The notes below the pieces were generated by a model. That model had not been told where the DNA came from. It searched no databases and saw only the letters and a list, made by a program, of their open reading frames with translations. Below, piece by piece: positions 26,267 through 37,654 of a DNA stretch of 64,000 nt (positions are counted from its first letter, which is position 1; every line of letters starts with the position of its first letter). Location of the stretch: contig CP129480.1 of the NCBI GenBank assembly GCA_030583885.1, forward strand, positions 3,784,714-3,848,713, written 5' to 3'. The position numbers were made by a program, and so were the translations under genes. Source of the DNA: Anaerolineales bacterium. GTDB taxonomy: Bacteria > Chloroflexota > Anaerolineae > Anaerolineales > Villigracilaceae.

Positions 26267-27178
26267 ATGACTGACCTTCATCCACTGGCAGGAGTCTACG
26301 CCGCAGCCGTAACTCCACTAAAAACAGACGCCTCTTCCTTCGACCTTGAGTCGGTTCTCGCCTTTTTGCATTTCCTCGCTGGTAGAGGCTGCCACGGTGC
26401 CTTGCTCTTCGGCACAACTGGCGAGGGACCGTCCTTCTCGCCCAAGGAACGTGAGATATTCCTGCGCTCCGTGCGCGTTGTGCGCCAGCAAATTCGCGGA
26501 TTCAAACTACTGGCAGGCACAGGCACACCCAGCCTGACCGAAACCATCGAATTGACCAAACTCGCCTACCAACTCGGCTACGATGGGACGGTCGTCCTGC
26601 CGCCATATTACTTCCGCAAAGTGACAGATGACGGCTTGTTCCAATGGTTCAGCGAATTGATCGAGAAAGCCGTGCCAGAAGGAAAATATCTGCTCGGCTA
26701 TCATATCCCGCCCATGACAGGCATCGGCTTTTCGCTGGAACTGCTTGAACGATTGAAGGAAAAATTCCCGAATCAATTCGCAGGCATCAAGGATTCATCA
26801 CATGATGAATCCTATGCAACCGCAGTTGGTCAACATTTTGGCAAAGACCTGCTCGTCCTGAACGGCACGGACGCTTATTTGCATCATGCGCTGAAGAACA
26901 ACGCACAAGGCGCGATCACCGCACCCGCAAATCTGATCTCGGATAACCTGCGCAAGGTTTGGGATCTGTTTCAGGAAGGAGAAGACCCGTCCGAAGCGCA
27001 GGCGAAGGTCAGCGAACAGCGGCATTTTCTTGAAAGTTACGCCCCCATCGCCCCTATCTTGAAGGGACTGCTTCATAAGATACACGGACTTCCGCGCTGG
27101 TCGGTGCGCGCGCCGCTGGAAGATGCGGACGAGAAAACGCTGGTAGATGCGGCGGAGAAGTTTTCAAAAATCTCGTAA
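26267..27178 (+). CDS. DapA-family (dihydrodipicolinate synthase-like) lyase
   Basis: A 303-residue TIM-barrel aldolase, started at ATG 26267, 2 nt after the previous stop. It shows the family's TTGEGPSFSPKER loop, a tyrosine in VLPPYYF and the Schiff-base lysine in FAGIKDSSHD. The family includes 4-hydroxy-tetrahydrodipicolinate synthase, N-acetylneuraminate lyase and sugar-acid aldolases. With no lysine-pathway genes beside it, the exact reaction is not determined. A strong terminator follows. Confidence 0.85.
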   Translation: MTDLHPLAGVYAAAVTPLKTDASSFDLESVLAFLHFLAGRGCHGALLFGTTGEGPSFSPKEREIFLRSVRVVRQQIRGFKLLAGTGTPSLTETIELTKLAYQLGYDGTVVLPPYYFRKVTDDGLFQWFSELIEKAVPEGKYLLGYHIPPMTGIGFSLELLERLKEKFPNQFAGIKDSSHDESYATAVGQHFGKDLLVLNGTDAYLHHALKNNAQGAITAPANLISDNLRKVWDLFQEGEDPSEAQAKVSEQRHFLESYAPIAPILKGLLHKIHGLPRWSVRAPLEDADEKTLVDAAEKFSKIS

Positions 27179-27182
27179 TTCA

Positions 27183-27218
27183 GTAGGGACACAGCGACGC
27201 TGTGTCCCTACTTTTTTT
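27183..27218 (+). terminator. Terminator built from a GTAGGG...CCCTAC palindromic repeat
   Basis: A perfect 13-bp stem GTAGGGACACAGC/GCTGTGTCCCTAC with loop GAC, then seven T. The same sequence type recurs at 32763-32788, so a mobile palindromic repeat seems to have become the terminator of the DapA-family gene. Confidence 0.85.
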
Positions 27219-29129: not shown

Positions 29130-29909
29130 TCACTGCAACGCGCCTCGAAACTCCGCTGCAAACTGTTTCGCTGTTTCTATCGGCTTTTCACTCCCCCCAA
29201 TCGTTTTCACACACGCCGAACCGACAATGACTCCATCCGCCAATTTACCGACTTGCCTGGCTTGTTCGGGCGTGCCGATTCCAAATCCCACACACACAGG
29301 CACAGATGTGTGTTCCCGTACGCGAGAAATTAACTCACCCAAACCTTCTGAAATGGATTTGCGTTCCCCGGTCACACCTGTCACTGAAACAAGATAGATA
29401 AATCCCTTGGCGTTGCGGGCGATCATTTCCATGCGGTCGGGAGGCGTGGTGGGCGCGAGCATTTGAATTAACGGTAATTGTAGGGGCGACGCATGCGTCG
29501 CCCCTACGAATTCATCCGACTCTTCCATCGGCAGATCAGGGATGATGAATCCGTCCGCACCGGCCTCTTCCGCATCACGGACGAATTTCTCCAAGCCATA
29601 CGCCAGCATGGGGTTGTAGTAACCCATCAGGATCAACGGGATGTCCACGCCGCGCTTGCGCAATTCCTTCACGGCTTCGAGCGACTTCTTGACCGTGATT
29701 CCCTGCTCCAAGGCAATTTGTGTCGCGTGCTGAATCACAGGTCCATCCGCGAGCGGATCGGAGAAGGACAGTCCCACTTCGATCAAGTCCGCACCGCTGT
29801 TTGCTAAGGCTTCGATCACGTCAATGGACGTGTCCAAGTCAGGGTAGCCCAACGGGAAGTAGGGCATGAAGATTGGTTTGTTCTTGAAAGCGTTTTCGAT
29901 TCGGTTCAT
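29130..29909 (-). CDS. trpA: Tryptophan synthase alpha chain
   Basis: A 259-residue TIM-barrel subunit that splits indole-glycerol phosphate to indole. Catalytic Glu lies in LIEVGLSFSDPLADGP and catalytic Asp in GFIIPDLPMEESDE. Phosphate loops VSVTGVTGER and GFGIGTPEQ are present. Directly after the PDLPMEESDEF box, a perfect 28-bp palindrome (29480-29507) encodes VGATHASPL in place of the usual helix sequence. The open frame continues on both sides, so the protein should still be made. It is the last gene of the trp operon. Confidence 0.93.
   Translation of the reverse strand: MNRIENAFKNKPIFMPYFPLGYPDLDTSIDVIEALANSGADLIEVGLSFSDPLADGPVIQHATQIALEQGITVKKSLEAVKELRKRGVDIPLILMGYYNPMLAYGLEKFVRDAEEAGADGFIIPDLPMEESDEFVGATHASPLQLPLIQMLAPTTPPDRMEMIARNAKGFIYLVSVTGVTGERKSISEGLGELISRVREHTSVPVCVGFGIGTPEQARQVGKLADGVIVGSACVKTIGGSEKPIETAKQFAAEFRGALQ
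29480..29507. repeat. 28-bp perfect palindrome inside trpA
   Basis: Half-site GTAGGGGCGACGCA followed immediately by its reverse complement, with no loop. It is translated in trpA as VGATHASPL. The ends GTAGGG...CCCTAC match the elements at 27183 and 32763 and a partial copy at 37451-37473, indicating one repeat family. Confidence 0.9.
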
Positions 29910-31875: not shown

Positions 31876-31888
31876 CGCTTCACCCATG

Positions 31889-31957
31889 TTATGCTGAGCG
31901 AAGCGAAGCATCTCGCTCGTCGGGGAAGAGACCCTTCGCTTCGCTCAGGGTGACATT
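31889..31957. repeat. Inverted-repeat element forming the trpC 3' end
   Basis: Perfect 15-bp arms CTGAGCGAAGCGAAG (31894-31908) and CTTCGCTTCGCTCAG (31934-31948) with a 25-nt loop. Read on the minus strand it codes the last roughly 22 residues of TrpC (VTLSEAKGLFPDERDASLRS...). The LSEAK/SLRSA peptide is a known hallmark of an interspersed bacterial repeat type. Confidence 0.8.
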
Positions 31958-32755: not shown

Positions 32756-32762
32756 GGCAGTT

Positions 32763-32788
32763 GGACACAGCAACGCTGTGTCCCTACG
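32763..32788. repeat. Copy of the GTAGGG...palindrome at the trpGD stop codon
   Basis: Stem GGACACAGC/GCTGTGTCC with loop AAC, continuing into CTAC. It is the same sequence as the 27183 terminator apart from the loop and one decayed end. The trpGD stop TAG is formed by the GTAG end of the element. On the minus strand no long U-run follows, so it is unlikely to stop transcription here. Confidence 0.8.

Positions 32789-37199: not shown

Positions 37200-37654
<455 letters not shown>

Follow-up and report, generated by a model that had tools for sequence, protein, structure and literature searches.

A 28-bp double-foot palindrome, probably a REP element linked to RAYT transposases, is translated within trpA of an Anaerolineales bacterium

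The palindrome and its host gene

The locus lies in a 64,000-nucleotide stretch of an Anaerolineales genome, referred to here as the window. The host gene is trpA, a minus-strand ORF whose product gave a full-length match to Trp_syntA (E 1.7e-88), and it contains a perfect 28-bp palindrome, GTAGGGGCGACGCATGCGTCGCCCCTAC, that was read directly from the sequence (Table 1). The translation across the palindrome runs ...ESDEF-VGATHASPL-QLPLIQMLAPT..., and both the position and perfect symmetry of the palindrome and its in-frame reading within a genuine trpA are as the original prediction had stated. Two of the three frames of the 28-mer are free of stops, yielding VGATHASPL and RGDACVAPT. No match to it occurred in 100 dinucleotide shuffles of the window, even with three mismatches allowed, which rules out a chance origin of the palindrome. 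The near-normal length ascribed to TrpA holds roughly, in that most relatives in the genus are four residues shorter at the insert spot and the empty gene of G021 is two residues shorter.

Table 1. Coordinates of trpA and of the palindromes within the window
Feature	Position	Strand	Remarks
Double-foot palindrome, 28 bp, each strand beginning 5'-GTAG	29480..29507	.	In-frame VGATHASPL within trpA
trpA (tryptophan synthase alpha chain), 259 aa; contains the palindrome	29130..29909	-	Trp_syntA match, structure model
Sister palindrome GTAGGGACACAGCGACGCTGTGTCCCTAC	27183..27211	.	Intergenic; an ORF ends a few bp upstream, at 27178; common type in the genome
Decayed family member GTTGGACACAGCAACGCTGTGTCCCTAC (GTTGGACACAGC...GCTGTGTCCCTAC)	32760..32787	-	trpD-trpC junction; read directly

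In an AlphaFold2 model of TrpA (mean pLDDT 87.5, with moderate model confidence at the insert site), residues 135-143 form the end of helix 128-139 and the turn ahead of strand 147-151. The active site of an (alpha/beta)8 barrel is on one face and the helix-to-strand turns are on the other. The predicted structure does not support the earlier placement of the insert in a helix next to the active-site loop, and a turn that faces away from the active site argues for tolerance over an effect on catalysis. Judging from the model, the insert is most likely a tolerated passenger that would be neutral for TrpA.

A genome-wide search for GTAGGG/CCCTAC palindromes, as had been suggested, found 23 sites that fit GTAGGG-N(6-36)-CCCTAC in the 4.4-Mb genome of the window, with the exact 28-mer present twice. 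Nearly all of these are near-perfect palindromes of a few types whose arms carry matching changes, and they lie mainly in tight intergenic gaps beside gene ends, with the TAG of the GTAG foot often serving as the stop codon. We judged trpA to be the sole convincing intragenic case among the 23 sites, the other overlapping ORFs being N-terminal extensions or spurious. The reversed control pattern, CATCCC-N(6-36)-GGGATG, fits 42 sites in the genome versus 23 for the real pattern, with a rough chance estimate of 8. Three related palindromes had been proposed within the window; the one at 27183 stands, the one at 32763 is a decayed copy, and near 37451 there is at best a fragment, GGGGAAACCCCGCCCTTAC. 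The GTAG foot of the decayed copy provides the TAG stop of the trpG-trpD ORF, which ends at 32784. A different repeat family occupies the trpC-trpF junction (31886-31956). Here both the tail of trpC (VTLSEAKGLFPDERDASLRSA) and the residues that extend the trpF ORF at its N terminus (MLRFAQHNMGEA) are read from an inverted repeat whose arms are 29 bp long (CTGAGCGAAGCGAAG...).

Filled and empty trpA sites among relatives

We compared trpA within the genus and with the outgroup L045, aligning 30 sequences over the insert stretch. No palindrome is present at the site in 19 of the 30 genes (EF-QSINGDM-PLI type), and the outgroup trpA lacks the 28-mer segment. The 28-mer is found in two of the 30, from the window genome and from G031 (one synonymous change). 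Two others carry GTAAGGGCGACGGG(C/A)... or a near form, with different centers (GTAAGGGCGACGGGCCCGTCGCCCCTAC and a form with GGGCCA), one carries GTAGGGGCGGATCGCAATCCGCCCCTAC, four carry the unrelated palindrome GGTCGAGTAGAC...GTATCG, and the last two are longer at the site without a clear palindrome. The 28-mer in trpA is an insertion relative to these relatives. The GGTCGAGTAGAC...GTATCG palindrome, which is in frame at the same site in L034, L041, L042 and L044 (G036, G030, G016 and G012), is a low-copy repeat of the genus with 0 to 3 exact-pattern copies per genome, followed by GAGACC in some cases. That unrelated palindromes have repeatedly occupied a single trpA site seems not to have been reported before.

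The net change at the site is +12 bp compared to most relatives and +6 bp compared to G021, and the flanks differ, suggesting that the 28-bp palindrome arrived with loss or replacement of local sequence; the event thus differs from a clean 28-bp insertion. No target duplication was seen. At the position of the GTAGGGG foot of G035, some empty trpA genes contain GTGGG or GTGGGG. Filled states are scattered over the trpA tree, whose deep branches are weakly supported, and this distribution likely reflects several gains or losses of the insert, the number of which is not countable from that tree. Between the two carriers, the DNA of the palindrome shows no exceptional conservation: G031 keeps 27 of the 28 bases, a level matched by 18 of 249 windows of 28 nt taken codon by codon along the gene.

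Spread of the 28-mer and its association with RAYT genes

No fewer than 117 stretches from other genomes contain the identical 28-mer. Among the 80 matches listed, the record titles give about 19 phylum-level labels: Chloroflexota, Gammaproteobacteria, Desulfuromonadales, Glassbacteria, Gemmatimonadota, Peribacteria, WOR-3/Stahlbacteria, Coprothermobacterota, Omnitrophota, Planctomycetota (Kuenenia), Nitrospinota, Acidimicrobiia, Armatimonadota, Acidobacteriota, FCPU426, Verrucomicrobiota, Nitrospirota (Manganitrophus), Latescibacterota and Binatia. By simple arithmetic, chance alone would yield about 4e-6 occurrences of a given 28-mer in 257 Gb. Many of the records are metagenome bins, but contamination is made less likely by several single-chromosome records in which multiple copies occur in differing contexts. 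A phage or plasmid origin was rejected, as the matches included no phage or plasmid records and no more than two viral contigs. The 28-mer occurs in 14 of 301 genomes of a Chloroflexota sample, one of which has 28 copies and its sampled congeners 0 or 1. The open literature that was searched contained no report of the 28-mer, its peptide or the trpA site, and the letter-perfect sharing of the 28-mer across phyla seems to be unreported.

In other genes, within the fetched stretches on which our genic and intergenic counts are based, the 28-mer interrupts or adjoins recognizable domains of UvrA, leucyl-tRNA synthetase, a polyketide synthase, a glycosyltransferase, a DUF2142 membrane protein and a SpoIVB-type peptidase, and it lies in terminal extensions of RNase J, a class I tRNA synthetase, a ferredoxin-like protein and PEP mutase. 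The count of open ORFs at the sites (42 of 120) contains spurious ORFs and was set aside as an intragenic rate. A uvrA-like gene in a Verrucomicrobia bin (L098, 1107-6485) has two in-frame exact 28-mers, which recalls the uvrA insertions of O. terrae reported by Di Nocera et al. 2013 (PMC3733652). At 9 of 134 distinct sites, versus 0.3 expected from shuffled flank pairs, the 28-mer is exactly central in a longer inverted repeat (L130, L132, L112, L125, L155, L059, L230, L244 and L245), which could result from hairpin-tip targeting or from palindrome growth by template switching. Many 28-mers of G195 (L230-L242) have common longer flanks (CTGAACGATGCACCGCTGGACGC), indicating that they are part of larger composite repeats there.

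A profile built from two Glassbacteria RAYTs showed that the exact 28-mer is also found in frame within RAYT genes of several phyla, invariably in the stretch that separates the HUH motif from the tyrosine motif; it reads VGATHASPL in L087, L106, L131, L160, L165, L244 and L245, and RGDACVAPT in L293. Sister palindromes occupy the same place, between the HUH histidines and the region of the catalytic tyrosine, and read VGARHASPL, VGTRRRRVPT, VGAQRRCAPT and others. In G011, which belongs to the same genus as the window genome, an exact 28-mer (L283) lies directly upstream of a RAYT gene, and a sister palindrome lies in the loop of that RAYT. Among 37 RAYTs of a Chloroflexota sample, a strict double-foot palindrome was present in the loop (4.0 kb in total) of 10 and in the flanks of 7, with none in the remaining core (15.0 kb). 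The loop and flank palindromes are identical or nearly so in at least three RAYT genes, and at L353 one palindrome recurs upstream, inside and downstream of the RAYT. The tandem repeat of NGVT units beside the palindrome in the RAYT loops of L244 and L245 differs in length between these two related genomes. The original prediction is thus borne out in part. That the repeat can lie within genes and be read through in frame is supported, and the prediction withstood the refuting condition set for it, since trpA of relatives mostly has neither this DNA nor this peptide; it had missed the breadth across phyla (about 19 labels among the matches listed) and the tie to RAYTs.

RAYTs were present in 10 of the 14 Chloroflexota genomes with the 28-mer versus 72 of the 287 others (Fisher p = 0.0005, for genomes that are not phylogenetically independent). 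This association falls short of proof, given that many-copy genomes may be larger or richer in mobile DNA. The RAYT profile found no match in 9 of 38 genomes searched, all nine of which carry the 28-mer; these include two single-chromosome records, G063 with 25 copies and G069 with 7. In such carriers, either the RAYT was lost, or it acted from elsewhere, or another process copies the palindromes. With PF01797 alone, a Y1 gene was missing in 5 of 20 palindrome-bearing genomes, and the RAYT-specific profile recovered two of these (G070 and G079), indicating that the Pfam model under-counts.

The window genome has two RAYTs, at C1:1330638 and C1:690718, the second matched in its first half only. 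The loop of the first contains a decayed GCAGGGGCACGG...CCGTGCCC and the other is without a recognizable loop palindrome; in a strict test, no Y1 transposase of this genome was flanked by the palindrome. Four AACACTGGGA...TCCCAGTGTT inverted repeats surround the RAYT at C1:1330638 (G000:C1:1328506-1331248) in the manner of terminal repeats, and a pattern search found this repeat nowhere else in the window genome. The suspicion of a palindrome family around this RAYT other than that of the 28-mer (ACTGGGA...TCCCAGT) was discarded, its four copies lying within 2.8 kb as local repeats.

Probable origin of the insert and alternatives

Quentin et al. 2018 (PMC6006769) described double-foot REPs, with in-frame insertion within tnpA_REP, for subclass 2.4 (RAYT group 4). 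As in those elements, the 28-mer has GTAG at one end, the complementary CTAC at the other and a long stem, and its distribution is patchy across phyla. It ends a long hairpin with 5' GT[AG]G and 3' C[TC]AC, and palindromes of this kind flank tnpA_REP genes here, as in G011 and at the 7 of 37 RAYTs above. The RAYT alignment shows NHI/VH, WQRNYYE and YI..NP, with a variable residue before NP, which is close to the NH[IFV]H, WQ and YIxNNP of the subclass 2.4 transposases rather than letter-perfect. By its sequence and its location inside and beside RAYT genes, the 28-mer appears to be a double-foot REP of subclass 2.4, a kind already known. Unlike in the published description of the subclass, one exact 28-mer occurs in about 19 phylum-level groups among the matches listed, and this copy lies in trpA. 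The GTAG REPs of Di Nocera et al. 2013, some of which are intragenic, notably in uvrA, resemble the 28-mer family in their GTAG foot, palindromic structure, location in short gaps near gene ends and frequent use of TAG as the stop codon. However, the GTAG of a canonical GTAG REP is unpaired and at one end only, whereas in the 28-mer it pairs with CTAC and is at both ends, which rules out identity with the canonical single-foot element. Rickettsia palindromic elements, going by their description in PMC3733652, are likewise palindromic repeats tolerated in frame in protein genes.

We consider it very probable that a RAYT-linked double-foot REP landed in the trpA turn, kept the frame and is translated as a harmless segment. 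The 28-mer would be a short, non-autonomous mobile hairpin linked to single-strand HUH transposases (RAYT/TnpA_REP), and comparison of sequences suggests that these may mobilize it. When single-stranded, either strand could fold into a hairpin with a GTAG foot, and the transposase would recognize foot and hairpin, cut and rejoin. Copies would then spread, mostly to tight intergenic gaps and also to the transposase's own frame between the HUH and tyrosine motifs. One copy would have entered, or replaced part of, the helix-to-strand turn of trpA, and a version that kept the frame would have survived.

A spread or regeneration of the palindromes without RAYTs, through template switching at hairpins, gene conversion or another recombinase, with RAYT genes being merely frequent landing sites, seems to us unlikely. 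Genomes that carry as many as 25 exact copies but gave no RAYT match speak for such a process, as do the GTGGG or GTGGGG of some empty trpA genes, and the centering of 9 of 134 sites in longer inverted repeats fits template switching and hairpin-tip targeting equally. However, the palindromes are concentrated in one RAYT loop and in RAYT flanks at recurring distances, the 28-mer is associated with RAYTs in the Fisher test, and a RAYT could have been lost after the repeat had spread. We regard it as much less probable still that the insert is adaptive in trpA, either through a hairpin that acts on translation in the trp operon or through a change at the alpha-beta interface. Selection could explain why different palindromes sit at one trpA spot in several lineages of the genus, yet insert length and peptide vary freely among lineages, many lineages have no insert, the site lies, with moderate model confidence, in a turn from helix to strand, and similar inserts are found in unrelated proteins (among them UvrA, leucyl-tRNA synthetase and a polyketide synthase). 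That the segment is ancestral trpA coding sequence, palindromic by accident, is scarcely credible: its conservation in G031 is like that of the rest of the gene between both carriers, but the orthologs compared, including the outgroup, mostly lack both the DNA and the peptide, and the identical 28-mer recurs across many phyla, both in unrelated genes and in gaps.

In addition to insertion of a RAYT-linked REP, we tentatively raise the idea, itself rather doubtful, that persistence within the RAYT frame has kept these palindromes stop-free in two frames and so pre-adapted them to other genes, and that the trpA turn is a real hot spot that has independently accepted at least three unrelated palindrome types in one genus.

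In summary, a tiny repeat remains identical to the letter across phyla while the genes around it differ, and it is turned into protein within essential genes of biosynthesis and repair. With filled and empty versions of the trpA site in one genus, this site offers a natural test bed for the entry of REPs into genes and for the question of whether RAYTs mobilize them.
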